From positions 1-44,953 of the forward strand of contig JAIXYV010000055.1 in assembly GCA_027490055.1 (NCBI GenBank): a stretch of 44,953 nucleotides of DNA. The letters are read 5' to 3'. The stretch is from Bacteroidota bacterium (GTDB taxonomy: Bacteria; Bacteroidota; Bacteroidia; NS11-12g; UBA955). This document shows, in pieces, positions 10,406 through 39,281 of this stretch. Numbering within the stretch: position 1 is the stretch's first letter; every line of letters begins with the position of its first letter. A model generated the notes under the pieces. The model ran no database searches, had not been told where the DNA came from, and saw only the letters and a list, made by a program, of their open reading frames with translations. Both the position numbers and the translations under genes were made by a program.

Positions 10406-10411
10406 GCCAGA

Positions 10412-19058: not shown

Positions 19059-21035
19059 ATGAAGAAAATACGACTGCTTTATTACACTGATCCGCTCTGT
19101 TCGAGTTGTTGGTTGTCTGAACCTTTTTTAAAACGCTTGCTGAATGAGTACAGCGATTTTATACAATTAGAGGTCAAGATGGGAGGCTTATTGCCATCAT
19201 GGGAAGTTTATAAACCCGCAAATTCCGATATGCCTAAGGAGCGATATCTCTCTGGAATGTGGAACGCATTAGGGAAAAAATATGGCGTATGTATCGACGG
19301 TGATATTTGGTTAAAAAACCCAATTCAATCTTCTATTCCAGCTTGTATCGCCTATTATGCAGCACTCAACCAGGGCGAAGAGGTTGCACTCGATTTTTTA
19401 CACTTATTAAGAGAAAAAGTATTTCTTCAACATAAAGATATTGGTCAGGATCATACCATTATCAGTGCTGCGATTCAGGGTAAACTGGATTTAGAAAAAT
19501 TCGTCGCAGACTTCGCAAGCTGGGATGCTCAGATGGCTTTTAAAAACGACTTAGATGAAATGTCGAAACTAGACATTACTTCTTTTCCTACATTGATTTT
19601 CAGGCACGAAGAAAGTGCACAATCTGTAACATACACTAAGCATATCAGTATGAATGTTAGTGGCGAGGAAATATACAACGAGTGGGTCGAGATTCTTACT
19701 CGTTTATGTGGTGGTCCGCTTCCTAAAAAATCTTCCCGAGTATGCAGTGCGTGTGTACTGAAGCAACATCGCGGACTGACCACAAGCGAGATAGTATCTA
19801 TTAATCAACTGGATTTTGAGCAAGCGCAACAGGAACTTGAAAACGAGTATAGCAGAGGCCTGGTGATTAAAGAGCAGCGACCATTATTTGATTACTGGTC
19901 GATGAATACAACCAATTACGCAATCAATAAAAACGGATTTAAAATAAAAGATGCCACAATTATTGGTGGGGGAGTAGCGGGTCATTTTCTGGCTTTAATG
20001 TTGAAACGAAATAATATTCCCTATAAGCTTTTTGAAAGAACAGATAAGTCTGCTCCGGGTGGATTGGGGTTTTTATTAGTTGAAAATGGATTAGAGGCAT
20101 TGCGATTAATGGGTCTAAAAAATCAGATCCTTAAAAATTCCAACACGCTCAATTTCTTTAAGGCAATTGATACCAAGGGGAATGTTATTTATAAGCGTAT
20201 TTTAGAAGAGTGCGTTGCTATAAGTCGCGATACATTTTTTAAAGTTGTAGGCGAAGAGCTTGATACCGTCCATCATGAGCATGGTAAAGCAGCCGTATCC
20301 ATTATTAAAGCAGAAGATGGACAAACAAATGGTGTATTGCTTGATGATGGTTCTACGATTCAATCGGATGTTTATTTCGCTCTGGATGGCATCAATTCAG
20401 TTGTCAGGCAGCAATTATTTCCGGATAATGTTTTGGAAGAAGTTATGGAAGGCGAACTGGTCTGTATGGTGACGATAAAAGATACCGGCTTGCAGCAAGA
20501 TGAATTTCTAAAGATATTTGATAAGGAGCATGGGAAATTCATGGGATTAATTCCATTGGGGAATGATCATTACATCTGGTTTATTCAATTTAACAGGGCT
20601 AAAGATAGGGGTCTGACCAGAGATCCGGAAGTATTGAAAGCATTTGCTGTTGAAACTGTTAAAGATTATCCTTACAGCATTAGAAAAATAGTAGATGAAA
20701 GTTGTTTTTCGCGTTCTATTTTATGGAATGCCAAGCGGATGTCTGTCTTGCCGTCCTTTCACGATGATAAAGTGGTGTTAGCGGGCGATGCCGCGCATCC
20801 TTTGCTGGCCTTTACCAGTCAGGGTTCTAATTCGGCCTTAGAAGATATTGCCTGTCTGATGTCTTTGCTTTCGCATCAAACCGATGAGCAATCTATTCAA
20901 GAGGTGTTTGCCTCGTATTACAAAGCGCGTAAATCATCCATTGAGTACTATATAAAAGAAGGCGACGAGCTGGTACACGACTTCTTTAATTTCGGAAAAT
21001 CCAGTGAAATCAAAGTGCCAATATCATTACACTAA
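19059..21035 (+). CDS. Fusion: DsbA/SpxH-like thioredoxin domain + FAD-dependent monooxygenase
   Basis: 658 residues. Residues 1-about 215 are a DsbA-fold domain: YYTDPLCSSCWLSEPFLKRL gives a CxxC at Cys14/Cys17, and DITSFPTLIF supplies the cis-Pro loop. The start DPLC..CW.lEP is most like SpxH/YjbH proteins. A linker follows with a second CxxC (VCSACV, about 229-232). Residues about 298-650 are a group A flavin monooxygenase (UbiH/TetX type): Rossmann GxGxxG in IIGGGVAGHFLAL near 302, ER after it, and the FAD-ribityl motif AGDAAHPLLAFTSQG near 574. There is no signal peptide, so it is cytoplasmic. It is followed one base later by the PLP enzyme gene. The substrate is unknown. Confidence 0.87.
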   Translation: MKKIRLLYYTDPLCSSCWLSEPFLKRLLNEYSDFIQLEVKMGGLLPSWEVYKPANSDMPKERYLSGMWNALGKKYGVCIDGDIWLKNPIQSSIPACIAYYAALNQGEEVALDFLHLLREKVFLQHKDIGQDHTIISAAIQGKLDLEKFVADFASWDAQMAFKNDLDEMSKLDITSFPTLIFRHEESAQSVTYTKHISMNVSGEEIYNEWVEILTRLCGGPLPKKSSRVCSACVLKQHRGLTTSEIVSINQLDFEQAQQELENEYSRGLVIKEQRPLFDYWSMNTTNYAINKNGFKIKDATIIGGGVAGHFLALMLKRNNIPYKLFERTDKSAPGGLGFLLVENGLEALRLMGLKNQILKNSNTLNFFKAIDTKGNVIYKRILEECVAISRDTFFKVVGEELDTVHHEHGKAAVSIIKAEDGQTNGVLLDDGSTIQSDVYFALDGINSVVRQQLFPDNVLEEVMEGELVCMVTIKDTGLQQDEFLKIFDKEHGKFMGLIPLGNDHYIWFIQFNRAKDRGLTRDPEVLKAFAVETVKDYPYSIRKIVDESCFSRSILWNAKRMSVLPSFHDDKVVLAGDAAHPLLAFTSQGSNSALEDIACLMSLLSHQTDEQSIQEVFASYYKARKSSIEYYIKEGDELVHDFFNFGKSSEIKVPISLH

Positions 21036-22589: not shown

Positions 22590-23726
22590 ATGAGAGTAAA
22601 ACAAAGTCGGTTTAAAGATGAGCATGAAGTCATTCATTTTCTAAGTCATTTTAATGCTTCAGAGTACGACTTGCATATAGTCTTTACGGATATTATTTAT
22701 CCAACAGAGCCAGTGATTAGTGAAATGTTTTCTAAAGCTTTCAAGGATTCAATGGTGATAGGCTGCACAACCGCTGGCGAAATCATTAACAAGCATTCAG
22801 AAGATAAATCATTTTCTATATCGTCTGTTAAATTTGAAAGGACAAAAGTTAAGAAGTTTACCTATTCGCTACAGAATACCTCTGATTCATTTAATGCAGG
22901 CAAGCTGCTTGGTCAGTTATTGCTGTCAGATGATTTGAAACATGTTTTTATTTTATCAGAAGGCATACATGTGAATGGAACTCGCTTAACAGAAGGTTTT
23001 AATTCTGTTTTGCCGCCGGAAGTTAATGTTTCGGGCGGACTGGCGGGCGATAATGGAAAGTTTGAAAAGACTTTAGTGATCGATCAGAACAATCAATTTA
23101 GTTCTGATTGTATTTCAGTTATTGGTTTCTATGGCGATTCTATTAAGTCGAGCACCGGATCTTATGGCGGCTGGGATAGTTTTGGAATTGATCGTGTTGT
23201 AACCAGGAGTAAGGAAAATGTTGTTTATGAAATAGACAATCAACCAGCTTTAGATTTGTATAAATCGTATCTGGGAGATATGTCTGAACAGTTGCCTGGT
23301 TCAGCTTTGTTTTTCCCATTAGAAATGCGCATCGACGAGAAAAGCGACCTATTGGTTCGTACCATTCTGGGAGTGAGTGAAGCCGATAAGAGCATGACTT
23401 TTGCAGGCAATATTCCAGAAGGCGCATCTGTGCGATTAATGAAAACCAATGTGAACAGGGTAATTGACGGAGCAGAAAAGGCTGCTGTTATTGCCAACAA
23501 AGAAAAGTTGGATGCAGAGCTTGTCTTAATGGTTAGTTGCGTTGGCAGAAAACTAGTATTAAAACAGTTGGTGCAAGACGAGATTGAAGCTGTGGTGATG
23601 GAGTTTCCAGATGCCACCAGTTTTACAGGATTTTACTCTTACGGTGAATTATTGAAATCTGGTTTCTCTGATAATTGCGAGCTTCATAATCAAACAATGA
23701 CCATCACCGTATTAAGCGAGAAATGA
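22590..23726 (+). CDS. FIST domain sensory protein
   Basis: 378 residues with no signal peptide. FIST_N spans about 25-215, with the hallmark GCTTAGEI near 58 and SGGLAGDNGKF near 148. FIST_C spans about 225-365 (PALDLYKSYLGDM ... ALFFPLEM ... GVSEADKSMTFAGNIPEGASVRLM ... TGFYSYGEL). FIST domains are predicted small-ligand (amino-acid-like) sensors linked to signalling modules. It overlaps the next kinase gene by 4 bases (ATGA), so the two proteins are made together, and the FIST protein probably delivers the input to that kinase. Confidence 0.92.
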   Translation: MRVKQSRFKDEHEVIHFLSHFNASEYDLHIVFTDIIYPTEPVISEMFSKAFKDSMVIGCTTAGEIINKHSEDKSFSISSVKFERTKVKKFTYSLQNTSDSFNAGKLLGQLLLSDDLKHVFILSEGIHVNGTRLTEGFNSVLPPEVNVSGGLAGDNGKFEKTLVIDQNNQFSSDCISVIGFYGDSIKSSTGSYGGWDSFGIDRVVTRSKENVVYEIDNQPALDLYKSYLGDMSEQLPGSALFFPLEMRIDEKSDLLVRTILGVSEADKSMTFAGNIPEGASVRLMKTNVNRVIDGAEKAAVIANKEKLDAELVLMVSCVGRKLVLKQLVQDEIEAVVMEFPDATSFTGFYSYGELLKSGFSDNCELHNQTMTITVLSEK

Positions 23727-25444
23727 TAAAAGGAAACTTTCATAGACTGCTTAGACGACAAGTTTTAACCCATTTTGGAGAGGGATTTAAAACTTCGCCA
23801 GAGCTGGAGAGTTTTATTGATGCAGTCAATGAAGCCTATAGAGATTTCGACAAGGACCTCGACCACGCAGAAAGAATATTGAAAGAAAGTTCGTCAGAAC
23901 TGTTTCTTAAAAACAAGGAGCTGAATGCCCTTAATAGTTCGATGGCACAGACCATCGCCGATCAAACAGCCGATATACAACGCATTGCCTTCAATCTTCA
24001 AAAAGCAGAACATATTGCTGGCATGGGTAATTTCAGCTGGAATCCTGCCACTGGTGAGTTAGAGCTTTCTGTTCAGTTAAAAGAAATTTGTCGCGAATAC
24101 AATATTGATTACGAGCAAGGGGTGTTTCATGTTATTCAATTATTTGACAATACAGATGACATACGCGACCAGATTTTATATGCCATCAACACAAGAGAAA
24201 AACTCCACATAGAACGCATGAAAATGAAGCACCGCGAAGTGTATCTCATGATGGAAGGTCAGATTGTTGAGAATACTACTAACAGCGGCGATGTACTTTT
24301 CTTCGGCGTTATTCAGGTAGTGACAGAGCGTGTTTTGTCAGAGCGTCAGTATATTGAACAGAAAGATTTTTACGAAAGTATCCTCAATACATTGCCGCCA
24401 GATATTGTGGTGTTGGACAAAGATACCCGTTATCTTTTCGTCAATCCAGGTGCCATTCAGGATGAGTTTGTTCGAAACTATATGATAGGAAAAGATCATA
24501 ACGAGTATTCCAGATTCCGTAAAGTGAGTCCTGAAGTACACGAGTTTCGCATGCGCAATTTCAAAAACATGTTGGAAACCCGACAGGAGGTAGAATGGGA
24601 AGATTCAGTCATAAAGAAAGATGGAAAGCGCGAAGTAAAACTTCGTCGTGTCGTTCCATTAATAACTGAAAACAATGAGATAAAATTTGTAATTTCATAC
24701 GGTATCGATATCACCGATAGAAAAGAGATTGAAGAAAAACAACTCTTGCTTGTGGATCAGTACGCCTATCAGAATGCCAAGCTGATTGATTTTACCAATA
24801 TCGTTTCACATAACTTAAGAGGGCCACTTGTTAATATTGATTTGCTTGTAAAATACATGCAGGCGACGGAAGACATTGAAGAGAAGAACGACCTCATTGA
24901 TAAGCTCGGTCCCATCATAGAAAGTCTCCACGAAGTATTTGACGAACTGGTAGAGTCTATTCAGGTGCAGAATGACACCGAAATGGTTTGGGATAATAAC
25001 GACTTTACAGAGGCAGTGGAACGAATCCTTAAAGGGTTTAATACAGAAATTTTAAATACGGGTGCTGTGTTTTGCGTAGAACACCAGGATGTGCCTACAA
25101 TTAAATTTCCCTCTAAATACTTTAATAGTATCTTGCATAATCTGATTTCAAATGCGATTAAATACCGATCACCTAATCGACCATTACAAGTCACTATCGA
25201 AGCGCATAAAGAGGGCAACAAAGCCATTCTTCGCATACAGGACAATGGTTTGGGTATCGACCTGAATCGCCACAAAGACAATATCTTTAAAATTGGAAAA
25301 GTCTTTCACAGGAATCCATCTGCGAAGGGTTTTGGCTTATTTATGACCAAAGCGCAAATAGAAGCCATGGGTGGCAATATCTGGGTAGAAAGCGAACCAG
25401 ACAAAGGAACAACCTTTAGTGTCGAGTTTGTCGATCAGGATTAA
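23723..25444 (+). CDS. PAS sensor histidine kinase, partner of the FIST protein
   Basis: 573 residues, no membrane segment. The N terminus (LLRRQVLTHFGEGFKTSPELESFIDAVNEAY, about 8-40) and a coiled coil to about 95 (DLDHAERILKESSSELFLKNKEL) are typical of kinases encoded with FIST proteins. A degenerate PAS lies at about 100-205 and a second PAS at about 215-340 (YLFVNPGAIQDE ... YGIDITDRK). The phosphoacceptor His is near 361 (IVSHNLRGPLVN), and the ATPase domain has NLISNAIKYR, DNGLGIDL, AKGFGLFMTK. From the second PAS onward it is closely similar to the kinase at 16419, so the two arose by duplication. No response regulator is adjacent. Confidence 0.93.
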   Translation: MIKGNFHRLLRRQVLTHFGEGFKTSPELESFIDAVNEAYRDFDKDLDHAERILKESSSELFLKNKELNALNSSMAQTIADQTADIQRIAFNLQKAEHIAGMGNFSWNPATGELELSVQLKEICREYNIDYEQGVFHVIQLFDNTDDIRDQILYAINTREKLHIERMKMKHREVYLMMEGQIVENTTNSGDVLFFGVIQVVTERVLSERQYIEQKDFYESILNTLPPDIVVLDKDTRYLFVNPGAIQDEFVRNYMIGKDHNEYSRFRKVSPEVHEFRMRNFKNMLETRQEVEWEDSVIKKDGKREVKLRRVVPLITENNEIKFVISYGIDITDRKEIEEKQLLLVDQYAYQNAKLIDFTNIVSHNLRGPLVNIDLLVKYMQATEDIEEKNDLIDKLGPIIESLHEVFDELVESIQVQNDTEMVWDNNDFTEAVERILKGFNTEILNTGAVFCVEHQDVPTIKFPSKYFNSILHNLISNAIKYRSPNRPLQVTIEAHKEGNKAILRIQDNGLGIDLNRHKDNIFKIGKVFHRNPSAKGFGLFMTKAQIEAMGGNIWVESEPDKGTTFSVEFVDQD

Positions 25445-28088: not shown

Positions 28089-29426
28089 ATGAAAAAAATA
28101 TCTACTCAATTCAACTCTCTGAGAAAACTGGCAGCTTTTTGCTTCGTGGCATGCAGCTCTTCAGTTTTTGCTCAGAACGCGCCAATCGATTTCGAATCAA
28201 CTGGCAAAGGTGCTAACTGGACCTGGACTTCTTTTGAAAACGTTGGTAATGCAGCGCTTGAAATCGTTGCTAACCCTGCTACCACAGGTGCTAACACCTC
28301 TGCAACATGTGCTAAATTCACTACCCTTACCGGTGGTCAGCCTTGGGCTGGTTGCCACAGTGCACACGGTGCAGACATCGGCACTTTCACTCTTTCTGCT
28401 TCTAACGCTATCGTTAAAATCATGGTTTACAAATCTGTAATCAGCGATGTGGGTATCAAATTCGCAACTTCTGCTAACGCTTCTACAGGCGAAATCAAAG
28501 TGGCTAATACAAAAACCAACGAGTGGGAAGAATTAACTTTCGACTTCTCTAGCAAAATTACTGAAACCAACGATCAAATTATCATCTTCCCTGACTTCCA
28601 GGCTAGATCTACTGATAATGTTTGTTACTTCGATAACATCACTTTCTCTGCTACTACCAGTGCTCCAAAAGAGCCAACAGTTGCTGCTCCAACCCCAACT
28701 GCCTTAGCTGCTAACGTTATCTCTTTATTCAGTAACGCTTACACCAACAGAACAGTTGATACCTGGAGAACTGGTTGGTCTCAAGCGACTTTAACTGATA
28801 TGCAGGTTGCCGGTAACGATGTTAAAAAATACTCTTCATTAGATTTCGCAGGTGTTGAAACTGTTGGTGCAAATGTTATCGACGCAACTTCAATGGAACA
28901 TTTCAATATCGATGTATGGACGCCAAATGCGACTACTTTCAAATTGAAATTAGTAGACTTCGGTCCTGATGGTGCTTTCCAAGGTGGTGACGATAAAGAA
29001 CACGAATTGTCTTTCACGCCAACTAAAGAGGCTTGGAATACTTACAAAATCGCTTTATCTGACTTCACTGGTTTAACTACCAGAGCTCACATGGCTCAAT
29101 ATATCTTTGTTGGTAACCCTACTGGTACCAGCATCGTTTATATCGACAACGTATACTTCAGCAAAAATGCTTCTACCTCTGTAAACAGCATCGAAACTGC
29201 TAAAGTATCTGTATACCCTAACCCAGCTAACTCAGTATTCACTGTTTCTTCAGCTAATGCTATCGACAACATCACTGTTGTTAATGCTTTAGGTCAGTCA
29301 GTTTATACGGCTGCTCCTGGTACTAACGGTGTATCTGTTGATGCTTCTGCTTTCGCAAAAGGTATCTACACTGTATTAGTGTCTTCAAACGGTCAGACTA
29401 CTGCTTCTAAAGTAGCTGTAAACTAA
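28089..29426 (+). CDS. T9SS-secreted protein with two carbohydrate-binding-like domains
   Basis: 445 residues. A signal peptide covers residues 1-29 (ends SSVFAQ). A first jelly-roll-like domain spans about 31-190 (IDFESTGKGANWTWTSFEN ... VCYFDNITFS). A Pro/Ala linker is followed by a second domain at about 205-355 (VISLFSNAYTNRTVDTWRTGWSQA ... MEHFNIDVWTPNATTFKLKLVDFG ... IVYIDNVYFS), a module often attached to GH16 beta-glucanases in Bacteroidota. A type A T9SS sorting domain (VSVYPNPANSVFTV ... GIYTVLVSSNGQTTASKVAVN) completes the protein. No catalytic domain is present. It probably binds glycan at the cell surface. Its codons are unusually uniform (AAC, TTC, GCT, GGT preferred), suggesting high expression. 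It is first in the glycan block and is followed by two stem-loops. Confidence 0.87.
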   Translation: MKKISTQFNSLRKLAAFCFVACSSSVFAQNAPIDFESTGKGANWTWTSFENVGNAALEIVANPATTGANTSATCAKFTTLTGGQPWAGCHSAHGADIGTFTLSASNAIVKIMVYKSVISDVGIKFATSANASTGEIKVANTKTNEWEELTFDFSSKITETNDQIIIFPDFQARSTDNVCYFDNITFSATTSAPKEPTVAAPTPTALAANVISLFSNAYTNRTVDTWRTGWSQATLTDMQVAGNDVKKYSSLDFAGVETVGANVIDATSMEHFNIDVWTPNATTFKLKLVDFGPDGAFQGGDDKEHELSFTPTKEAWNTYKIALSDFTGLTTRAHMAQYIFVGNPTGTSIVYIDNVYFSKNASTSVNSIETAKVSVYPNPANSVFTVSSANAIDNITVVNALGQSVYTAAPGTNGVSVDASAFAKGIYTVLVSSNGQTTASKVAVN

Positions 29427-29433
29427 TTTAACT

Positions 29434-29469
29434 AAAGTAAGTGATCAGGGTTTTCTGTCACTTACTTTT
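29434..29469 (+). terminator. Stem-loop 1 after the T9SS glycan-binding gene
   Basis: Perfect 11-bp stem AAAGTAAGTGA / TCACTTACTTT with a 13-base loop and a short T-rich end, 7 bases after the stop codon. Confidence 0.75.
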
Positions 29470-29485
29470 GTTTGAATCATAAATG

Positions 29486-29522
29486 ACATGTGGCCTCGCT
29501 CTGAGGTCACATGTTCTTTTTT
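29486..29522 (+). terminator. Stem-loop 2, ahead of the glycosidase gene
   Basis: 12-bp stem ACATGTGGCCTC / GAGGTCACATGT with one wobble pair and a 5-base loop, followed by TCTTTTTT. It ends only 18 bases before the ATG at 29541, so any promoter for that gene lies upstream of it. Confidence 0.75.
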
Positions 29523-29540
29523 CAGAAAACCCAAACAGCC

Positions 29541-30875
29541 ATGAAAAAAACACTACTTCTATATTGCCTAGCTCTCTCGTTTGGCTTATCCGCTCAAACG
29601 AAAGTTGTACTCACTGATTCAGGTTATACCTTCATCAGAAACGGTCAGCCTTACTATGCCAAAGGTCTCGGTGGCGAGGTTAATTTTGATAAGATGGTAG
29701 AAATCGGCGCCAACTCTCTGCGTACCTGGGGTGTCGAAAATGCACAAGCTATTTTAGACGAAGCCCATAAACGCGGTTTAACCGTTATGCTCGGTATGTG
29801 GCTGCAACACGAAAGACATGGCTTCGACTACGACAATAAAGAAAAAGTAAAAGCGCAACTCGAGTACTTCAAAACAGTAGTCGATCGCTACAAAAATCAT
29901 CCTGCAATTCTGCTTTGGGGCATAGGCAACGAGCTCGATCTTAACTACTCCAATACCAATGTCTGGTATGCCGTGCAAGACATCGCTAAATACATTCATG
30001 AAACCGACCCAATGCATCCAACTTCCACCGTAACGGCTGGATTGGATTCAATGGAGGTTCAGTTAATCAGTGCCCGCTGTCCGGACATCGATGTATACTG
30101 CGTCAATACCTATGGTGATATCGGCAATGTGCCATCTAAAATTGGCAAGTTCGGTTGGAATGGTCCGTATATGATTACAGAGTGGGGACCAAACGGTCAC
30201 TGGGAATCACCGCAAACCAACTGGGGTGTTTCAATTGAACAAAGCAGTACCGAAAAATCTCAATCTTACGCCGAAAGATTTGCAAAATACATTCAACCAA
30301 ATTCTGGTCAATGTATCGGCTCATATGCCTTTTTATGGGGCGCTAAACAAGAGTATACCGAAACCTGGTATGGCTTGTTCTCTAAAGATAATCTGCCAAC
30401 AGAACCAATTGATGCCCTTCAAATGGCCTTCACCGGAAAAGCACCTCTTAATCCTGCGCCCTCTATTCGCCAATGTCTGATCGATGGTAAAAACGCTTTT
30501 CAAAGTGTTACCATCAAAGCCGGCGATTTTTATAAAGCCAATGTGCAGGTCGAATTGCCAGATTCATTGAAAAATGCTAACGCAACTTATATATGGCGCA
30601 TCATGGAAGAAAGTACCGATAAAAAATCTGGTGGTGATGTCGAAGAGGCTGCCACAGAAATAGGAGGCCTTATCAAGGGCAAGTCCAATAAGCCTCTAAT
30701 TTCTTTCCGCGCGCCTGACCGCGAAGGCAACTACCGTTTGTTCGTTACCGTCTTACACAATAATAAGGTGGCCTATGCAAATGTACCTTTTAAAGTAACA
30801 CCGCGTTTGCCTGGTGATAAACCTTCCAGAATGATACAACTTAAAACAGTCGATATGTCTTCTTTTGACAACTAA
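29541..30875 (+). CDS. Secreted TIM-barrel glycoside hydrolase/transglycosylase, GH2/GH72-like
   Basis: 444 residues from the ATG at 29541, chosen because it starts the signal peptide (MKKTLLLYCLALSFGLSAQ). The catalytic barrel spans about 25-310: NGQPYYAKGLGG, GANSLRTWGVENAQAILDEAHKRGLTVMLGMWLQ, LLWGIGNELD with the acid/base Glu131, and MITEWGPNG with the nucleophile Glu214. This clan GH-A pattern is shared by the GH2 C-terminal barrel and GH72/GH17 beta-1,3-glucan transferases; the linkage cannot be fixed by eye. A beta-sandwich-like domain follows (about 330-435, YRLFVTVLHNNKVAYANVPFKV). It is exported to the periplasm or beyond, with no lipobox or sorting domain. It is 4 bases upstream of the first barrel gene. 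Confidence 0.87.
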   Translation: MKKTLLLYCLALSFGLSAQTKVVLTDSGYTFIRNGQPYYAKGLGGEVNFDKMVEIGANSLRTWGVENAQAILDEAHKRGLTVMLGMWLQHERHGFDYDNKEKVKAQLEYFKTVVDRYKNHPAILLWGIGNELDLNYSNTNVWYAVQDIAKYIHETDPMHPTSTVTAGLDSMEVQLISARCPDIDVYCVNTYGDIGNVPSKIGKFGWNGPYMITEWGPNGHWESPQTNWGVSIEQSSTEKSQSYAERFAKYIQPNSGQCIGSYAFLWGAKQEYTETWYGLFSKDNLPTEPIDALQMAFTGKAPLNPAPSIRQCLIDGKNAFQSVTIKAGDFYKANVQVELPDSLKNANATYIWRIMEESTDKKSGGDVEEAATEIGGLIKGKSNKPLISFRAPDREGNYRLFVTVLHNNKVAYANVPFKVTPRLPGDKPSRMIQLKTVDMSSFDN

Positions 30876-30879
30876 CAGT

Positions 30880-32823
30880 ATGACAATAAAAAAATATTTA
30901 TCCGCTATCGTACTGTTGTCTGTTGCTGCTGCAATAAATGCTCAGGAGACTGATACGATGCCTACCAGACGAATTCCGGTTGACCCCTTTGTGGTGCAAC
31001 CTATGCCCTTGCCTGAAAGTAAATCCGCTGAAGTGACTGTAGATCCTTACACCAGTCGTCAGCAAATAAATCCTTCTTTTAATAAACCTGTCGATTTTCT
31101 TGACAATCTGGATATCAGTGGCTACTACCGTTTTATTGCTAATTACAGAGAAATGAAAACGGTTTACTCGCATCTCGAAGCCAATAAAAACAATCTTTTT
31201 GTTGGCGATGATAGTCAGATTCCTCAACTGATGCTGAATCTGAAAGGGTATGCTGGAAGTAATACATTTTTTGGCACCGACTTCTTTATGTGGACGCCAC
31301 TGACTGGTGCTGGTCAGGTTGAAAACGTTAAAGGACTTAACCTGGGTATCAGTTTATACGGGAGCTTCACCACTGCACTCGGTAATTTCACGGTTAGAAC
31401 TGGTGGTATTAACTGGTATGCTATGTCGCCTTTTACTTTTCAAACCAATAAAGGCTACAACCGCTATAGTTTATTCGAACGAAATCCATGGGATCCTCAA
31501 ACCGCTAAAGTAGAGTCGCGTTATTCTGAGTTTTATACTTCTGGAGCAATCAATCAAGACCAGCGTTGGGGTAATCAGGCCTTTCATGGTTTAATTATAG
31601 AAGGGGCTCAGTTGCCTAACAATTTCTCATTCAGCGCGCTGGTTGGTAAAACACAATTCGATGGTGGTATGGCGGCATTGCCAAATACTTCTGCCGGCGG
31701 TCGACTGCAAAAATCTTATAAAGGTGAAAATGGCTGGATTGCGATCAATACCTTTAACAATGAAAGTTTGGTCGATTCTCTAAAATCTGTCAAAGCTGGA
31801 TTTAATATGGTAACTGCCGAATGGAAACATCAGTTTAAACATTTTAAAATTTATTCAGAATTAGGAACAGGTAAGAAATTTGCTAGTGGTTACAATGGCG
31901 ACTGGGGTGAAGCTTTATCAGTAAAAGTAACTGGAGATATTCTTAAAAAATTCTCAACCGAATTCCATCTTTACCGTGTGAGTCCGAACGTGTTTAATAA
32001 CAGTTCTATCTTTATTAACTCTTCTATTCAGCAAACGGTACAGTCTAATAACAGTCAGACTCAACCAGTTTTGATTCCTGTTTCAAGTGCGGTATTGCCG
32101 ATAGGTCAGTTGTCCAATAACCGTCAGGGTATAGAGATTAATTCGCAGATCAATTTTGGTCGCCTAAAGAACTCTGTCGGGTATGCCATCTCTGGAGAAA
32201 TGGAAGCCTTGTCTCCATCGATTACTTACACCCATGCTTTCAATAATCTGGCTTTGTCAAGATTCTGGCGCTGGGATTTTCCAAGTGGTGTTGGTCCGTA
32301 CGCCAATCTCAATAAAATCTATCGCTCGGTGTTCGAGACAGTGCGCATGAGTGAGTTGGATGCCAGCGGTAAACCCTTGTACAAAAAGTATTTCAATACG
32401 ATTGAGCTGAATTCAAAATACAAAACCAAGCTTGGAACCAAAGAGATGTACCTGTTTTATCTGGGTTCGTTTAACTCGGTTCAAAACTTCGCATCACCAG
32501 GTGTTGTATTCGGAGAGAAAGCTTTGTTGAGAGCCTACTACCATCAGGCTGAATCGTATCTGAAACTCAATCCAAATTTAGTGCTTACCACATATGCCAG
32601 TGTCGAGCGCATCTTGGGTAATTACAATACACAAACAGATACAGAGACACGCCGACCAAAGAATCAGACGGGCTATAGTATCGCTACTGGCATCGATCTG
32701 CAAATGGGCAAAGGCGTTGGTTTATATATTCGCGAAAGATGGATGAAATATTTTGATTCCAGTTTCGTCAACGACCGTTACCAGGGTTTCGAAACCACCG
32801 TAGAACTTAAAGCATTTTTTTAA
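30880..32823 (+). CDS. Outer-membrane beta-barrel protein 1 of the glycan block
   Basis: 647 residues from the ATG at 30880, 4 bases after the previous stop; the longer frame starts inside that gene. Signal peptide MTIKKYLSAIVLLSVAAAINAQ. The mature protein is a long series of amphipathic strands with many Tyr/Phe/Trp girdle residues (LDISGYYRFIANYREM, GSFTTALGNFTVRTGGINWYAMSP, GLYIRERWMKYFDSSF) and ends ...TTVELKAFF with a terminal Phe, the barrel-insertion signal. No plug or carboxypeptidase-regulatory domain is present, so it is not SusC/TonB-dependent. The family is not recognised. Position suggests an oligosaccharide porin or a surface assembly partner of the next gene. Confidence 0.8.
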   Translation: MTIKKYLSAIVLLSVAAAINAQETDTMPTRRIPVDPFVVQPMPLPESKSAEVTVDPYTSRQQINPSFNKPVDFLDNLDISGYYRFIANYREMKTVYSHLEANKNNLFVGDDSQIPQLMLNLKGYAGSNTFFGTDFFMWTPLTGAGQVENVKGLNLGISLYGSFTTALGNFTVRTGGINWYAMSPFTFQTNKGYNRYSLFERNPWDPQTAKVESRYSEFYTSGAINQDQRWGNQAFHGLIIEGAQLPNNFSFSALVGKTQFDGGMAALPNTSAGGRLQKSYKGENGWIAINTFNNESLVDSLKSVKAGFNMVTAEWKHQFKHFKIYSELGTGKKFASGYNGDWGEALSVKVTGDILKKFSTEFHLYRVSPNVFNNSSIFINSSIQQTVQSNNSQTQPVLIPVSSAVLPIGQLSNNRQGIEINSQINFGRLKNSVGYAISGEMEALSPSITYTHAFNNLALSRFWRWDFPSGVGPYANLNKIYRSVFETVRMSELDASGKPLYKKYFNTIELNSKYKTKLGTKEMYLFYLGSFNSVQNFASPGVVFGEKALLRAYYHQAESYLKLNPNLVLTTYASVERILGNYNTQTDTETRRPKNQTGYSIATGIDLQMGKGVGLYIRERWMKYFDSSFVNDRYQGFETTVELKAFF

Positions 32824-32869
32824 ACACTTAATCTAAAATCACTTGATACAAACTATATATACCAATAGA

Positions 32870-34588
32870 ATGAAGACATTTATAAGAACAATGACAGTAG
32901 CAGCTTTGCTAATTTCAACTGTTCAGCTTCAGGCTCAGAAAACCAAGAAGGTGCAATTTGTCGGAGGGGCCCGTTCTTTAATGAACGCTAACGGACTTAC
33001 CGTTCAGGATACCACTGCTGATACGACTACTGTTAAAAGAAAAAATGGTGGATACGCACTGCTAGATCTTGGCGTTAATATCCGTCCGAATAAAAATACC
33101 GAGATCATGGGGATGTTCAGGATCCGCAACGAGTATGGCGGTTTCTGGGGTGCCGGCGTTAGCTTCGATGTTCGTCAGTTATGGATCAAAGGTATTATCG
33201 CCAATGCGGTCCGTTATCAGTTAGGCGACATCAATATCAAACAATCTAAGTTTACTTTATACAACCACCACGCCGATCAGATTGATTCGTTGCCATTGAT
33301 TTTTCAGCAGCAAAATGCCATCATTGGATACGATAAGTTTTACATGAACAACAATACCTGGCGCATGCAGGGTGCTCATGCTGATTTCGGATTAAGCTTT
33401 GCAAAAATTATCAAAGAAATTAATATCAGTGGTTTCATGACGCGTTTAAATCCTACTGATTTTGGTAGTATTAACGACCGTTTAATGAATGGCTTGAGTC
33501 TTCAAATTATTCAAAGTAAAAGTTTCTCTGCTCAGTTCAACCGCAGTCGCATTTTCGATTTGAAAGGCACTGTAACAACACCAAATATTTTCTCTAACGC
33601 CGTCAATACCGTAGAACTTTCTTACCATAAAATGTTCAGAAGTAAAATCTATAAACTGAGTGCCGAATTGGGTAACAGTCGCTATACACATTCTGAACTA
33701 CCAGGCTACCCAATTATAAAAGACTATTTCATCAACGCTAATGCGCAGTTCAATATGCCTTTCAAACATTTTACTGCTATGCTGGATTATATGAATGTGG
33801 GGCCTGATTTCAGAAGTTTGGGTGCTCAGTCTAAAGACATCAATTACAATCTGCCAACCGCTATGTACAGTCGCATTGGCAATGCTCAGCAGCTCCGCAC
33901 GGTCGGACTGATGGATGTTATTGCTAACGACAATCTATACAACAGAACCATCTCTACTAATCTGATCAGCGAGAGCCAGATCTATAACAATATTTTACCA
34001 TACGGCTTAGCTACATTTAACCGTCAGGGAGTTTTAGCGAAGGTGATGTATAACAACAAAAAAATAGTACAGTTAACAGCCGAAGTGGATGCTTTAAGTG
34101 AGATTAGAGGTCAGGGTAGCGATGCCTTAAAACAGTTCACACAGATTAAAGCATATGCTGGTTTACCTGTTCATCAGTGGTTGTCGTTAAAAAGAAGATT
34201 GCTGGTGCAACTAGCCTGGCAGTCGCAAGCCACCACCAGAACAGCCACCGCCAGTGTAGAGAATGTCGATTTAAAATCTAATCGTTTAAGCGCAGGCATA
34301 CGCTGGGAATTCTCACCGAATTTCGAGTTGATGGGTGGCTTTGTGTCTCAGACTACTCAAGGTAATGACTTTATGCCAGACAGAAATACCTTCACAGAAG
34401 TGGTGTATTTCAATCAGAGCAATTACGATATTCAACAACAGGTAAGCGCTATCGGCGTGCGTTATAACTTCAGTTCAAGAACTTATATCAGTGCCTTATG
34501 GCAATCATCCTTATTTAAAAACGCCTCTAACAAGGTAGTCGATTATACCATGAACCAGGCAGGAATTATTTATAGTATAGCATTTTAA
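32870..34588 (+). CDS. Outer-membrane beta-barrel protein 2 of the glycan block
   Basis: 572 residues from the ATG at 32870, chosen because it gives the signal peptide (MKTFIRTMTVAALLISTVQLQAQ). The strand-rich body (ALLDLGVNIRPNKNTEIMGMFRIRNEYGGFWGAGVSFDVRQLWIKG ... YISALWQSSLFKNASNKVVDYTMNQAGIIYSIAF) ends in Phe, as in outer-membrane barrels. It has no TonB box or plug. It is similar in build but not obviously in sequence to the preceding barrel, so the two may form a pair. The family is not recognised. The next gene (lipoprotein) starts 3 bases after its stop. Confidence 0.78.
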   Translation: MKTFIRTMTVAALLISTVQLQAQKTKKVQFVGGARSLMNANGLTVQDTTADTTTVKRKNGGYALLDLGVNIRPNKNTEIMGMFRIRNEYGGFWGAGVSFDVRQLWIKGIIANAVRYQLGDINIKQSKFTLYNHHADQIDSLPLIFQQQNAIIGYDKFYMNNNTWRMQGAHADFGLSFAKIIKEINISGFMTRLNPTDFGSINDRLMNGLSLQIIQSKSFSAQFNRSRIFDLKGTVTTPNIFSNAVNTVELSYHKMFRSKIYKLSAELGNSRYTHSELPGYPIIKDYFINANAQFNMPFKHFTAMLDYMNVGPDFRSLGAQSKDINYNLPTAMYSRIGNAQQLRTVGLMDVIANDNLYNRTISTNLISESQIYNNILPYGLATFNRQGVLAKVMYNNKKIVQLTAEVDALSEIRGQGSDALKQFTQIKAYAGLPVHQWLSLKRRLLVQLAWQSQATTRTATASVENVDLKSNRLSAGIRWEFSPNFELMGGFVSQTTQGNDFMPDRNTFTEVVYFNQSNYDIQQQVSAIGVRYNFSSRTYISALWQSSLFKNASNKVVDYTMNQAGIIYSIAF

Positions 34589-34591
34589 CAT

Positions 34592-35596
34592 ATGAAAAAG
34601 ATATTGATCATTGCAGCAGTATTACTGGTAACAGTAGTGGCTTGCAGAAAAGACAAAAACAGCGAGGGTCCTTCAATAGCTGAAATATACGGTCCCTTTA
34701 AGGTTATGACAGCTTTCGCTGCCAGCACCGATACGGTGGATTTTGAAGCGGGTCAGAAAGTAATATTCTCAGCTACTTTTAACAAGGTGGTGAACTGGGA
34801 AATTACAGTGACAGGTTCGACCTCTAAAGCGAAAAAGATTATCACGGGTCAGAGTAGACAAATTAATTCTACAAACGCTTTGTGGAATGGTTCTACCACA
34901 CTTTTCCCAATGTTTAAACAAGAGAATTGCGTCGCTAAATTAAAAATCGAAAACGAAACAGATTCATTCGTCCTGCCAATCAGAATTGCTAAAGTGAAGA
35001 TTGATCAGGGTTTTGTGATTGCTGATTTTGAAACGGGATTAAAAACTTCGTGGACACGTTTTATTCAGAGCGGCGCTAACATGGACTTTAAAGTAAAGAC
35101 CGATGCGCTGGCCCCTCAGGCAGGAGCATACCTGAATATGGCGGGTACGGTAGACTGGGACTATTTAATAGGCTTGGTGGATTTCCCTGCTTCGGCATAT
35201 GGTACGGCTAAAACTTTCCCACTATCATCTAATCCGGATAATGTGTACATGAATTGTTTGATATATGGCGATGCCAGTGTTGCTAACACATCTCTGGTGT
35301 TATTTCAGTTGAAAGAAGATGAGAATGCGGATGGTGTTATAAATGCTAATAGCGATGATGAGTACGATTATGAAATTAAAGTAGATTGGTCGGGCTGGAA
35401 ACTTATCTCTATCAAGTATTCTGATATTGTAACCCTGGTGAACGGTCAGCCCGCTACACCAAAAGGCAACAGACAACACAATCCGGATAAGCTGGGTAAA
35501 ATATCGATGCTGCATCTGGCCAATCCGAACAACGGATTTGCTTCTACTAAAATTGACTACATCGTGTTTACCAATGACAAACCACTTCAGCCTTAA
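34592..35596 (+). CDS. Lipoprotein with carbohydrate-binding-like domain
   Basis: 334 residues. The signal ends with a lipobox (LLVTVVAC, Cys18). Residues about 25-140 look like an Ig/PKD-type beta sandwich (VKVMTAFAASTDTVDFEAGQKVIFSATFNKVVNWEITVTG). Residues about 145-330 form a jelly-roll-like module (VIADFETGLKTSWTRFIQSG ... KIDYIVFTNDKP) like CBM11/galactose-binding folds. A loop DENADGVINANSDDEY near 243-258 has the Asp/Asn spacing of calcium-binding loops. In this location it is a candidate surface glycan-binding protein, the position taken by SusD/SusE-type lipoproteins in ordinary loci. The barrel and both lipoprotein genes are nearly contiguous. Confidence 0.8.
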   Translation: MKKILIIAAVLLVTVVACRKDKNSEGPSIAEIYGPFKVMTAFAASTDTVDFEAGQKVIFSATFNKVVNWEITVTGSTSKAKKIITGQSRQINSTNALWNGSTTLFPMFKQENCVAKLKIENETDSFVLPIRIAKVKIDQGFVIADFETGLKTSWTRFIQSGANMDFKVKTDALAPQAGAYLNMAGTVDWDYLIGLVDFPASAYGTAKTFPLSSNPDNVYMNCLIYGDASVANTSLVLFQLKEDENADGVINANSDDEYDYEIKVDWSGWKLISIKYSDIVTLVNGQPATPKGNRQHNPDKLGKISMLHLANPNNGFASTKIDYIVFTNDKPLQP

Positions 35597-35598
35597 GC

Positions 35599-36240
35599 AT
35601 GTTTAGAATAAGTCTGATATTGATATTGGTGCTGACGGCCTGCACATCTGTCCTACAAGTGCAGGAAAAGGCCTTATACGATGATCCTATCACTGCGGCA
35701 GATACAGTACTTGGTGGTTTTAAAGCCAGCGCCATTTTCAAGGACGATTATGATAAAAGTGTCTGGGTATCGCCTGAAGTGCAATGCGTTCAAATGGCCA
35801 GTGAAAAAGTGGTTTTTAAAGAAGGCAATGCTTCACTTAAAGTGAACTGGGATAAAATTAAAGGCAATTGTAAATGGATAGGGATAGGTTTTGGATGGAA
35901 CAACTGGATGGCGAAAGATATGTCGGATATTGCCGAAGCGTCTGCCGTATCTTTTAGTGTTAAATCAGTGAAAGGCGATTTTAAAAACCTGCCAGTGGCT
36001 TTCGCTTTCGAAGACTATTCAGGCGTGCAATGCTACTACGGTTTCAGACAAGAGATGGCGCCAAATGGGTTTAACGATTCTACATGGACCAGCGTAGTGA
36101 TTCCGCTGGAAAAATTCAATTTCAAATCCAAAGACTTCGATCTGGAAAAAGTCAAACAGTTCATCATTCAGCTGGAAGGCGATGGTGCTGTGTATATTGA
36201 TGATATTAAAATTATAAGCTTCCCAAGAAAAAATGATTAA
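35599..36240 (+). CDS. Lipoprotein with CBM11-like domain
   Basis: 213 residues starting 2 bases after the previous stop. Signal and lipobox MFRISLILILVLTAC. The mature part is a single jelly-roll-like domain (EGNASLKVNWDKIKGNCKWIGIGFGWNNW ... AVSFSVKSVKGDFKNLPVAFAFEDYSG ... VKQFIIQLEGDGAVYIDDIKI), the pattern of CBM11-type or galactose-binding-like modules. Aromatic residues (W, Y) are abundant as expected for a sugar-binding face. No catalytic residues are visible. It overlaps the GH3 gene by 8 bases, so it is translationally coupled to it. Confidence 0.8.
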   Translation: MFRISLILILVLTACTSVLQVQEKALYDDPITAADTVLGGFKASAIFKDDYDKSVWVSPEVQCVQMASEKVVFKEGNASLKVNWDKIKGNCKWIGIGFGWNNWMAKDMSDIAEASAVSFSVKSVKGDFKNLPVAFAFEDYSGVQCYYGFRQEMAPNGFNDSTWTSVVIPLEKFNFKSKDFDLEKVKQFIIQLEGDGAVYIDDIKIISFPRKND

Positions 36241-38470
36241 GCGTTCTGTTTTTATACTCGCTTTTTTTAGCCTCTCTTTGTTGAAGGCACAAAACGGTCC
36301 GGACATCGATTCTCTGATCCGTGTAATGACGATAGAGGAGAAGGCGGGTCAGATGACTCAAATCGACCTGGGTGTAATTGCCAAGGGTGATATCTGTGCG
36401 TTAAAACAACCACAAAGCATAGACGATAAGAAACTCATAAGCGGTATTAAAACCTACCATATCGGTTCGGTTTTAAATGTTGGTTGTGGTAGCGGTACCA
36501 TTGCCCTCGACAGATGGCACGATATTTTAAGACAGTTACATCAATACAACAGCGACTACAGTCGCTTAAAAATACCTGTTATTTATGGTATTGATGCTAT
36601 ACATGGTGTAAACTATACCAAAGGCGCAACATTGTTCCCTCAGCAGATCGGACAGGCTGCAACCTGGAATCCAAAATTAGTCAAGCAAGTTTACCAAGTT
36701 ACAGCTTATGAAACGCGCGCCAGCGGACTACCATGGAACTTTTCTCCGGTGCTGGATCTGGGCAGACAGCCTTTGTGGTCGCGCTTCTTCGAGACTTTCG
36801 GCGAAGATGTTTATTTGGCGAAATCGATGTCACAGACGGCGGTTCAAGGTTTGCAAGGCGACGGTTTAAACAGTCCGTTTAGTGTTGCGGCGTGTATGAA
36901 GCATTTCTTAGGATACAGTATGTCGCTCAGCGGCAAAGATCGCACGCCTGTGTGGATGTCCGATAGAGAATTGAGAGCCTATTTCCTGCCAACATTTCAG
37001 ACAGCTATTCAGCAAGGTGCTGCCACAGTTATGATCAACTCTGGCGAGATCAACGGCACACCAGTTCATGTCAATCACGATATATTAACGAAATTGCTGA
37101 GAGACGAATTGCATTTCAAAGGCGTTGCGGTAACCGATTGGGAAGATGTCTATAAACTGGTGAATGTGCACCATGTGGCGGCCACTAAAAAAGAAGCTGT
37201 TAGATTGTGCATACTGGCAGGTATCGATATGAGTATGACGCCTAATGATTTTGAGTTTACGACGCTTTTGGTTGAACTTATTAAAGAGGGTAGTATTCCT
37301 ATGTCGAGAATAGACTCTTCTGTGAGAAGAATTTTACAACTGAAGAAAGATCTTGGATTGTTTAAGCCCTTCTCAATTTCTAAAAGTCAGTACCCCGATT
37401 TTGGTTCTAAGAAACATGCTGAAGTCTCTTATCAGACAGCCACAGAAAGCATCACTTTATTGAAAAATACCAAGTCGGTTTTGCCAATCACTAAGCGCTC
37501 TGAAACCATCTTAGTTTGCGGTCCTGCCGCCAACAGCATGAACCTGTTAAACGGGGCATGGACACATACCTGGCAGGGAACAGATTCAACCTATCAGACC
37601 CCTGACAAATTAACGATAGTAGAAGCCTTCAAAAAACACACAAAGAATAAAATATTGTATGCGCAGGGCAGTGGTTTGGATAAATTATATGATGTCGATA
37701 ATTGTCTCAGAAAAGCTCAGGAAGCAGATAAGATTGTGATATGTTTAGGCGAAATGCCAAGCACCGAAATTCCGGGGAATATAAAAGATTTGGATTTGCC
37801 TCAGGCGCAGATAGAGCTGGTCAAAAAATTGAAAGCAGTAGGTAAGCCAATAATTTTGGTGTGCACGTTTAACCGTCCGCGTATTATACATGAAATTGTG
37901 CCAATGGCAGATGCAGTAGTATATGCTTATCTGCCGGGCGACGAGGGAGGAAGAGCTATCGCGGATATTATCACAGGCGAAGTTAATCCAAGTGGTAAAC
38001 TGCCATTTACCTATCCAGCAGCCAGCAACGATATCGTGCATTACGACCGCAAACATTCTGAAGATTTAGATACCGATTTTTCTACCAATGCTTATAAGCC
38101 TGAATTTGATTTTGGATTTGGTTTAAGCTATACCACTTTCGAGTACAGCAATCTTCGTGTAAGCAAAGATACGTTTAGCGCCAGTGATGTGTTGATGGTT
38201 TCTGTAGATGTTGAGAATACTGGTAAGAAAGAGGGGATGGAAGTGGTGCAATTGTATTATCAGGATTTGTATGCGTCGATTACGCCATCCGTAAGGCAAC
38301 TATGTGCTTATGATAAAATCTATCTGAAAAAAGGAGAGAAGAAAACGGTAAGTTTTGCAATTAAAGCTGAGGATTTATCTTTCATCAATAAACAATTAGT
38401 TCGCGTTACAGAGCGCGGCGATTTCGAACTGTATATTCAACAACTCAAACACCATGTCTACTATCAATAA
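36233..38470 (+). CDS. GH3 beta-glucosidase, exported
   Basis: 745 residues, usual for periplasmic GH3 enzymes. Signal peptide MIKRSVFILAFFSLSLLKAQ. The N-terminal TIM barrel (about 25-360) includes IPVIYGIDAIHGVNYTKGATLFPQQIG, KHFLGYSMSLSGKDRTP and the nucleophile Asp302 in VAVTDWEDV. The alpha/beta sandwich domain (about 395-620) has ESITLLKNTKSVLPI and YLPGDEGGRAIADIITGEVNPSGKLPFTYP. A C-terminal FnIII-like domain follows (VENTGKKEGMEVVQLYYQD ... FELYI). GH3 enzymes release glucose from beta-glucan oligosaccharides, mostly in the periplasm. It overlaps its neighbours at both ends (8 and 17 bases), so it is firmly within the operon. Confidence 0.94.
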   Translation: MIKRSVFILAFFSLSLLKAQNGPDIDSLIRVMTIEEKAGQMTQIDLGVIAKGDICALKQPQSIDDKKLISGIKTYHIGSVLNVGCGSGTIALDRWHDILRQLHQYNSDYSRLKIPVIYGIDAIHGVNYTKGATLFPQQIGQAATWNPKLVKQVYQVTAYETRASGLPWNFSPVLDLGRQPLWSRFFETFGEDVYLAKSMSQTAVQGLQGDGLNSPFSVAACMKHFLGYSMSLSGKDRTPVWMSDRELRAYFLPTFQTAIQQGAATVMINSGEINGTPVHVNHDILTKLLRDELHFKGVAVTDWEDVYKLVNVHHVAATKKEAVRLCILAGIDMSMTPNDFEFTTLLVELIKEGSIPMSRIDSSVRRILQLKKDLGLFKPFSISKSQYPDFGSKKHAEVSYQTATESITLLKNTKSVLPITKRSETILVCGPAANSMNLLNGAWTHTWQGTDSTYQTPDKLTIVEAFKKHTKNKILYAQGSGLDKLYDVDNCLRKAQEADKIVICLGEMPSTEIPGNIKDLDLPQAQIELVKKLKAVGKPIILVCTFNRPRIIHEIVPMADAVVYAYLPGDEGGRAIADIITGEVNPSGKLPFTYPAASNDIVHYDRKHSEDLDTDFSTNAYKPEFDFGFGLSYTTFEYSNLRVSKDTFSASDVLMVSVDVENTGKKEGMEVVQLYYQDLYASITPSVRQLCAYDKIYLKKGEKKTVSFAIKAEDLSFINKQLVRVTERGDFELYIQQLKHHVYYQ

Positions 38471-39281
38471 ACTCATTGTATTAATCACTTTACTGACGGC
38501 TTGTAAACAGTCGCCACCCCCTGATATCAAAGTACCAGACGAAAAAGGTGATTTGTTCTTTTCGGGATATTACTGGAATTATAAAGACAGACCAACGCCT
38601 GTGGGTCCGGGACCGAACCGCTTTTTGGGTAATGATAAAGGTGCATGGGTTGATAGTTTAGGACGATTGCATTTAAAGATTCAGAAGATTAATAATTTGT
38701 GGTATTGTAGCGAAATCATCAGTGTAAAAGAGTTTGGGTATGGTACTTATATTTTTACCTGCGAATCAGACATCAGTGCCTTTGATGAAAAGACTGTATT
38801 TGGATTGTTTACCTGGGACGATTATTCGTTTCAGAAGCAAGCGAACAGCGAAGTGGATATAGAATTTTCGAAGTGGGGTATACCCAACGATTCTCTAACG
38901 ATTACTTACAGTGTACAGCCTGTGATTTTTAGCAATCCTGTTCCGTATAGCGAGCGCACTCATAAGCCCCTTATCGCGAGCAAGTATGTCAAAAAGCCTG
39001 CTACCTATATGTTCAAATGGACACCAGATTTAGTGACCTGGGAAGGGTATGAAGGGGAGGTATATCCTGGAACGAATAAGACATCGGGCTGGCAGTTTGA
39101 TAAGAACAATATCACACGTCAGAAAATCGAGGGTCCTAATACCTCTGATCCTATAGTAATTCCAGCACCTAGTGATTCTACCAATGTCAGATTTAATTTC
39201 TGGTTATTGAACGGGCAAGCGCCCGCTAATGGCAAAGACCACGAAATAGTGGTTAAGAATTTCAGGTTTATACCGCTTTAA
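38454..39281 (+). CDS. GH16-like lipoprotein beta-glucanase
   Basis: 275 residues. The signal ends in a lipobox (MSTINKLIVLITLLTAC). The catalytic core SEVDIEFSKWG matches the GH16 E-[IV]-D-x-E motif, with nucleophile Glu133 and acid/base Glu137; FGYGTYIFTCES, FGLFTWDD and YMFKWTPDLVTWEGYEG are the neighbouring conserved strands. GH16 enzymes cleave beta-1,3(4)-glucans, agars or carrageenans; the exact substrate is unclear, but the GH3 partner favours a glucan. The domain departs from classical laminarinases in the active-site flank (FSKWG), so linkage specificity may be unusual. Likely anchored to the outer membrane. Last gene of the block. Confidence 0.87.
   Translation: MSTINKLIVLITLLTACKQSPPPDIKVPDEKGDLFFSGYYWNYKDRPTPVGPGPNRFLGNDKGAWVDSLGRLHLKIQKINNLWYCSEIISVKEFGYGTYIFTCESDISAFDEKTVFGLFTWDDYSFQKQANSEVDIEFSKWGIPNDSLTITYSVQPVIFSNPVPYSERTHKPLIASKYVKKPATYMFKWTPDLVTWEGYEGEVYPGTNKTSGWQFDKNNITRQKIEGPNTSDPIVIPAPSDSTNVRFNFWLLNGQAPANGKDHEIVVKNFRFIPL

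Follow-up and report, generated by a model that had tools for sequence, protein, structure and literature searches.

The window analysed here is a contig of 44,953 bases (JAIXYV010000055.1) from a Bacteroidota genome of 3.02 Mb (GCA_027490055.1; 121 contigs, 96.8% complete), and at positions 28089–39281 it holds eight open reading frames on the plus strand. These genes probably constitute a locus for the use of beta-1,3-glucan (laminarin-type) that belongs to the SusC/SusD-free kind represented by chu_1276–1280 of Cytophaga hutchinsonii, with a pair of beta-barrels as the outer-membrane passage. The gene content, enzyme families, catalytic residues, absence of SusD and of a plug, homology to CHU_1276, CHU_1277 and CHU_1278, conserved gene order and congruent barrel trees are observed; the substrate and the cellular location of each protein are inferred. 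The chu_1276–1280 cluster is already known as an atypical polysaccharide utilisation locus (PUL) of Cytophaga, reported for cellulose. New here are a predicted beta-1,3-glucan version, a wider spread, further copies beside other enzymes, and barrel trees that are congruent and sorted by enzyme.

An initial annotation of the window had described eight plus-strand genes for exported proteins, the last seven nearly free of gaps, and the coordinates and translations confirm this. Read by eye, the translations have a signal-peptide-like N-terminus in 8/8 proteins and a lipobox in those at 34592, 35599 and 38454. From 29541 onward the genes are separated by 4, 46, 3 and 2 bases, and the last two junctions are overlaps of 8 and 17 bases. 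Their treatment as one locus holds for the seven genes at 29541–39281; the first gene (28089–29426) is set apart by a terminator-like hairpin and, because this intervenes, may be a separate transcript. The hairpin stands out by stem length only, as 5 terminator-like sites were observed in the whole region against 9.3 expected in shuffles. The features are as follows.

28089–29426, plus strand: secreted protein sorted by the type IX secretion system (T9SS), with apparent CBM-like beta-sandwich repeats, 445 amino acids (Pfam Por_Secre_tail)
29485–29515, plus strand: terminator-like hairpin, a 14-pair stem then CTTTTTT, separating the T9SS gene from the operon
29541–30875, plus strand: GH158 endo-beta-1,3-glucanase, 444 amino acids (signal peptide without lipobox; PDB match)
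30880–32823, plus strand: barrel 1, CHU_1276 homologue, plugless outer-membrane beta-barrel, 647 amino acids (blastp, AlphaFold2 model)
32870–34588, plus strand: barrel 2, CHU_1277 homologue, plugless outer-membrane barrel with 22 strands in the model, 572 amino acids (blastp, AlphaFold2 model)
34592–35596, plus strand: lipoprotein with C-terminal CBM11-like domain, CHU_1278 homologue, 334 amino acids (lipobox, Pfam CBM11, blastp)
35599–36240, plus strand: CBM30-domain lipoprotein in the CHU_1279 position, 213 amino acids (lipobox, Pfam CBM30 at 8.6e-8)
36233–38470, plus strand: GH3 beta-glucosidase, 745 amino acids (signal peptide; Pfam GH3 N and C domains)
38454–39281, plus strand: divergent GH16-like beta-glucanase lipoprotein, 275 amino acids (lipobox, ExDxE motif)

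In blastp comparisons barrel 1 matches CHU_1276 (29% over 636 amino acids, E = 1.1e-61), barrel 2 matches CHU_1277 (32% over 545 amino acids, E = 1.4e-78) and the CBM11-like lipoprotein matches CHU_1278 (26% over 381 columns, E = 7.6e-28). The locus had been put forward as an undescribed system, which is not borne out, since these three proteins are homologous to members of a published PUL. There is no blastp match to CHU_1280 (GH9), and the endo-enzyme here is GH158. The CBM30 lipoprotein has no blastp match to CHU_1279 at 1e-3 and a probability of 1.6% in a profile comparison; because a CHU_1279 homologue is missing, we regard the locus as a variant and not as a plain member of the chu_1276–1280 kind. 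The accessible part of the C. hutchinsonii report describes the cluster as an 'atypical PUL' of two outer-membrane proteins, two binding proteins and one endoglucanase, in which, unlike the SusC/SusD of that organism, chu_1276, chu_1277 and chu_1279 are important for the use of cellulose, and reports it only in C. hutchinsonii, C. aurantiaca and Sporocytophaga myxococcoides (PMC12016534). A search for CHU_1279-like proteins in one order matched 22/390 genomes. One of these, G838, is taken as C. hutchinsonii because its CHU_1279-like protein has 375 amino acids and all six residues (W89, F92, F180, Y253, F256 and F343) as published (PMC12016534), and it holds two SusD genes, in agreement with the part of that paper available.

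Both clusters are without SusC and SusD, and both consist of co-directional genes for two barrels, a CBM11-like bimodular lipoprotein, a second glycan-binding protein and an endo-glucanase. They differ in that chu_1276–1280 has GH9 and serves cellulose, whereas the present locus, from a different lineage, has GH158, GH3 and GH16-like enzymes, a CBM30 lipoprotein not recognisably CHU_1279 and a predicted beta-1,3-glucan substrate. We found no non-cellulose version of the chu_1276 cluster in the literature (subscription papers were mostly outside the search), and no literature combining GH158, laminarin and porin.

For neither barrel does Pfam give a plug or TonB-receptor match at E ≤ 1, and its other matches are scattered and weak. 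In the AlphaFold2 models (predicted local distance difference test, pLDDT, 81.2 and predicted template modelling score, pTM, 0.79 for barrel 1; 90.8 and 0.86 for barrel 2), the first strand begins at residue 75 of barrel 1, preceded by a low-confidence tail, and at residue 28 of barrel 2. Because the strands begin this early, neither model has room for a plug domain, and the absence of Pfam matches together with the models confirms the first description of two outer-membrane barrels without plug. The C-terminal F is conserved in 100/102 barrel-1 and 73/94 barrel-2 members. The structure comparison that had been proposed as a check (Foldseek/VIA against solved structures) returned generic barrels, namely ushers, OprD/Occ, AlgE and chitoporin, with Z of 15.7 for barrel 2 against Occ, 14.3 for barrel 2 against AlgE and 15.8 for barrel 1 against AlgE. 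Matches to SusC (BT1762) span its residues 211–1016 and start past its plug, which argues against plugged TonB-dependent transporters. No close known fold stood out in the Foldseek/VIA rows, which does not prove the fold new. The two barrels are like maltoporin, chitoporin, OprD/Occ and AlgE in being plugless outer-membrane barrels, but they are larger and in the loci examined always occur as a pair together with lipoproteins, and no sequence relation was found.

The barrel-1 and barrel-2 profiles each match once in the source genome, although it has 16 TonB-receptor plug domains, and neither matches any of 14 long open reading frames from 8/16 of its TonB-receptor loci. The two barrels may be ancient paralogues (profile comparison E = 7.8e-4, probability only 24.8%). 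A faint motif order is common to both (GGINW..SPFT / GDIN..SPFT and NNR.G / ATFNR.G). Barrel 1 is broken into two or three frames in loci L031 and L037, by decay or assembly error.

Beta-1,3-glucan is a polymer of algae and fungi, and laminarin is a major algal carbon store. The protein at 29541, initially assigned to clan GH-A, is confirmed as such and identified as GH158 by its PDB matches (phmmer; 9oro, named GH158, E = 1.8e-92; 6pal, E = 7.1e-73) and by aligned catalytic residues: its N130-E131 and E214 fall on the N136-E137 and E220 region of BuGH158, and ITEWG is also aligned. The Bacteroides uniformis GH158 is described, in the portion of the source available, as an endo-beta-1,3-glucanase specific for laminarin, in which E137 is the acid/base and E220 the nucleophile; it is encoded alongside GH16, GH3, SusC and SusD (PMC7157763). 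The endo-acting enzyme of the window is probably periplasmic, because its signal peptide lacks a lipobox. The assignment of the protein at 36233 to GH3 is upheld by both Pfam domains (N domain 1.3e-68, C domain 2.4e-42); it matches BoGH3B (5jp0) in the PDB at E = 1.2e-179, its best NCBIfam models match below their cut-offs, and it is probably a periplasmic beta-glucosidase. The GH16 assignment of the protein at 38454 is tentative: the ExDxE motif is present (E133-V-D-I-E137, with E133, D135 and E137 invariant in 27 family members), and overall similarity is weak. It has no Pfam match at E ≤ 1, matches the NCBIfam beta-glucanase model at E = 0.0033, far under the cut-off, and through its family profile reaches Bacillus-type 1,3-1,4-beta-glucanases (1mac/1byh) in the PDB at a weak E of 0.0012.

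The two lipoproteins do carry the CBM-like domains first proposed, with the Pfam CBM30 match given above and a CBM11 match of 6.6e-6 at residues 231–322 of the protein at 34592 (26.7 bits against a cut-off of 27); profiles of the two families found no PDB chain at E ≤ 0.1. In the protein at 28089, Pfam finds Por_Secre_tail (2.8e-12 at residues 375–444) and nothing else at E ≤ 1. Its sequence reads as CBM-like, and it is probably a secreted glucan binder. A gene of this type lies immediately upstream in 5/5 same-genus loci with that side visible (L021–L025). The profile of this T9SS protein mixed unlike proteins and was set aside, and the 't9cbm' labels in the neighbourhood listings are loose.

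We propose that the CBM11-like, CBM30 and GH16-like surface lipoproteins, perhaps with the T9SS-secreted protein, would capture and nick the glucan, and that glucan chains or oligosaccharides would cross the outer membrane by way of the barrel pair, which has no N-terminal plug. In the periplasm, GH158 (endo) and GH3 (exo) would then cut them to glucose. The role of the barrels as import path is suggested by analogy with the C. hutchinsonii mutants and by the endo-enzyme without lipobox.

A search of the source genome for SusD (PF07980) gave 0 matches, with Bacteroides ihuae as positive control, and no SusC or SusD was found beside 28089–39281; flanking SusC/SusD were sought with one query each at 1e-10, which may miss distant ones. 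In one small order carrying barrel loci, SusD was not detected in 10/10 genomes examined. For the source genome, then, SusD is absent, the barrels have no plug and the neighbourhood is conserved in relatives, and on these three points none of the contrary outcomes envisaged in the initial annotation was found. The 1,3GUL of B. uniformis resembles the locus in its GH16, GH158 and GH3 families and surface glycan-binding proteins, but it also includes SusC (a TonB-dependent transporter), SusD and a two-component regulator of the hybrid type (PMC7157763, available part), none of which lies beside the present locus. Canonical SusC/SusD PULs likewise group, in one direction, the genes by which a single glycan is bound at the surface, hydrolysed and passed through the outer membrane; the present locus differs from them in being without SusC, SusD, plug and adjacent sensor-regulator.

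The gene order recurs in other Bacteroidota, as the initial annotation had proposed to check. Barrel 1 was found in 19/59 relatives, the source genome included, and in the 18 neighbourhoods fetched the two barrel genes are adjacent in 18/18, with GH158 in 16 and the other two cut by contig ends. A further, named scan found 171 relatives, of which the best 80 were kept (almost all of them metagenome genomes of Bacteroidota, together with the isolate Phaeocystidibacter luteus). Among these best 80 of 171 loci, barrel 2 is present in 78, GH158 in 75, CBM11 in 67, CBM30 in 63, GH3 in 44 and GH16 in 32, and the conserved core order is GH158, barrel 1, barrel 2, CBM11, CBM30. The arrangement at 29541–39281 is not chance, because the barrels are adjacent in every relative fetched and barrel 2 is so regularly present in the named loci. 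The P. luteus locus (L123) runs from a Nudix regulator through GH158, a sodium symporter, barrel 1, barrel 2, CBM11 and CBM30, followed by GH16, a sugar transporter of the major facilitator superfamily (MFS), a laminarinase-like GH16 and GH30. The barrel pair also occurs in four genomes from other classes within the phylum, with a CBM11-like gene in 4/4, and a LacI-type regulator lies beside it in two other-class loci read out (L137 and L139).

In the flanks of the best 80 of 171 named loci we found a Nudix-type regulator in 33, a FucP-like MFS transporter in 19, a laminarinase-like GH16 in 14 and a symporter of the sodium solute symporter family in 7. Pfam scans of 93/179 upstream proteins gave the NrtR/AraR winged helix in 20, MFS in 11 and SSF in 5, and those of 84/128 downstream proteins gave T9SS tails in 30, GH16 in 9 and GT2 in 2. 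Some glucose-catabolic genes also lie in the flanks, and by its predicted gene content the neighbourhood is catabolic. T9SS-tailed proteins with CBM48-like domains recur beside L047–L126, and CBM_48 is found in 15/84 downstream proteins. Locus L036 has the twin barrels, a GH158 that is 39% identical and, by reading, sulfatase-like genes around it, hinting at a sulfated glycan. A record titled Euryarchaeota archaeon (L114) carries the locus, groups with Crocinitomicaceae rows in the tree and is probably a mislabelled bin. Plasmid and viral collections held no relatives of the locus.

The barrel-2 profile matched 50/395 genomes of a class draw at E ≤ 0.01, including the source genome and one doubtful match (G533, E = 0.005 over 37 residues, probably spurious), and the barrel-1 profile matched 6/395 genomes of a whole-phylum draw; the two draws differ in sample and query, which leaves the frequency uncertain. 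Seven genomes of one family have two or three full copies each, with barrels that match those of the window by blastp at 1.5e-43 to 1.8e-101 (barrel 1) and 1.1e-55 to 6.0e-75 (barrel 2). GH16 and GH3 lie beside copies L172, L173, L175, L176 and L178, a CHU_1279-like protein and GH9 beside L174, L177, L179 and L181, and GH97 and GH13 beside L180, where the GH97 gene was read as two frames flanking masked bases. A GH18 chitinase with glucosamine-6-phosphate isomerase (NagB) was Pfam-checked in L182, and GH18 in L184. The neighbouring enzymes appear to point to substrates, GH9 to cellulose, GH18/NagB to chitin and GH97/GH13 to starch. Locus L183 has the barrel pair and two CBM11-like genes with no recognised hydrolase adjoining, and groups with the GH18 copies.

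Trees of both barrels were built from 52 rows: the window, 28 hand-picked loci labelled GH158 and 23 loci with other labels. The rows exclude eight loci in which a contig end was reached or no enzyme was visible; the script label GH16 of L136, L199 and L200 was changed to GH158 (the GH158 gene lies further out) and L183 was kept as 'other'. These are quick trees without bootstrap, and the enzyme labels partly follow lineage. The neighbour-enzyme label changes 7 times on each tree, where the minimum possible is 6 and the shuffled means are 21.9 (barrel 2) and 22.0 (barrel 1), and 0/200 shuffles were as low in each. Copies of one genome sit in different enzyme groups, and in the multi-copy family the copies with GH9 fall together with those of Cytophaga. 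No clustering is seen for the label 'CHU_1279-like without GH9' (34/500 and 500/500 shuffles as low in the two trees). The barrel-1 and barrel-2 trees have 36/49 splits in common and a distance correlation of 0.83, reached in 0/1000 permutations.

Several observations weigh against the interpretation of the locus as a SusC/SusD-free laminarin system. SusD is no rarer alongside the locus, being present in 9/19 of the barrel-1 genomes and in 19/40 of those without barrel 1 among the 59 relatives, and also in 33/50 barrel genomes tested, which rules out a strict genome-wide replacement of SusC/SusD. Relative L031 even has a SusC/SusD pair immediately beside its twin-barrel locus, and across genomes the presence of a barrel locus does not preclude that of SusD, nor the reverse. 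Of the initial proposal that the barrels and lipoproteins replace SusC and SusD, a positional stand-in at this locus survives and strict replacement does not. One of the 16 TonB receptors of the source genome could still carry the sugar, structural matches of the barrels are only generic (TM-score by query ≤0.42 among the matches listed), and the GH16 assignment is weak. The substrate could also be mixed-linkage glucan or fungal beta-1,3-glucan instead of laminarin. Loss of CHU_1277 lowers cell-bound beta-glucosidase activity in C. hutchinsonii, according to the accessible part of the study (PMC5553014). That result fits an anchoring role and the main competing explanation, in which the barrels are a surface platform holding enzymes and lipoproteins while sugar enters via general porins or another TonB receptor. 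The long conserved loops of both barrels could serve as docking sites for such a platform, and the 16 plug-domain receptors would likewise be in keeping with it. We nevertheless consider a platform unlikely, as the barrel copies sort by neighbouring enzyme, which is what a path specific to one substrate would show. For chu_1276 the cited reference is reportedly, by its title only, on glucose uptake, and other cited work, likewise known by title, is said to concern periplasmic endoglucanases. Mutants of chu_1276 and chu_1279 also grow poorly on low glucose, as the available part of the C. hutchinsonii paper states (PMC12016534), and glucose requires no enzyme at the surface.

The barrels might alternatively be TonB-dependent transporters with a plug that is concealed or provided by a separate protein, which seems improbable to us. 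TonB receptors have 22 strands, as has barrel 2 in its model, and the SusC barrel domain (BT1762, residues 211–1016) is among the structural neighbours. TonB-receptor matches are moreover reported for CHU_1276 in what was available of the same paper (PMC12016534). The absence of a Pfam plug, the first strands at residues 28 and 75, too early for one, and the start of the SusC matches past its plug all argue to the contrary. The suggestion that the locus trims or exports a self-made beta-glucan could draw on the AlgE-like export barrels among the structural neighbours, and exported hydrolases adjoining a barrel would fit it, but it is very improbable and we reject it on flank gene content. GT2 is confined to the 2/84 downstream proteins and does not appear in the list of 25 families for the 93 upstream proteins, whereas the flanks hold sugar importers, sugar-type regulators, laminarinase-like GH16 and glucose-catabolic genes; the apparent cellulose, chitin and starch versions adjoin endo-hydrolases and NagB.

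Elsewhere in the window, an unusual fusion at 19059–21035 (plus strand) encodes a 658-amino-acid protein with a DsbA-like thioredoxin domain (9–187) and a flavin adenine dinucleotide-binding monooxygenase domain (299–627). A UmuC/ImpB-type DNA polymerase with DUF4113 is encoded at 8694–9953 (minus strand), within a minus-strand gene run at 7724–10507 that looks like a mutagenic-repair operon. At 22590–25444 (plus strand) there is a FIST sensor protein, with a PAS histidine kinase directly after.

The best reading of the twin-barrel loci is that they are a SusCD-independent family of glycan-uptake loci, and the copies suggest that this family is broader than cellulose and adapted to several polysaccharides. 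We give an even chance to the wider proposal of a second general class of Bacteroidota PUL, in which a co-evolving barrel pair and a CHU_1278-type lipoprotein would pass glycan chains of such length that a periplasmic endo-hydrolase is required. Such a class would need neither SusC/SusD nor a plug, and beta-1,3-glucan, cellulose, chitin and starch would each have a paralogous line of their own. Glycan uptake in Bacteroidota is usually annotated via SusC/SusD, and PUL catalogues built on a SusC/SusD search would miss twin-barrel loci. If the proposal is true, lineages that look poor in PULs, such as the small order without detected SusD in its ten genomes, would carry another kind of glycan uptake, laminarin included. 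The Cytophaga cellulose system would gain a family whose substrates are soluble and which has at least one carrier in culture, P. luteus, and in which the passage of sugar chains through a plugless barrel pair would be easier to test.

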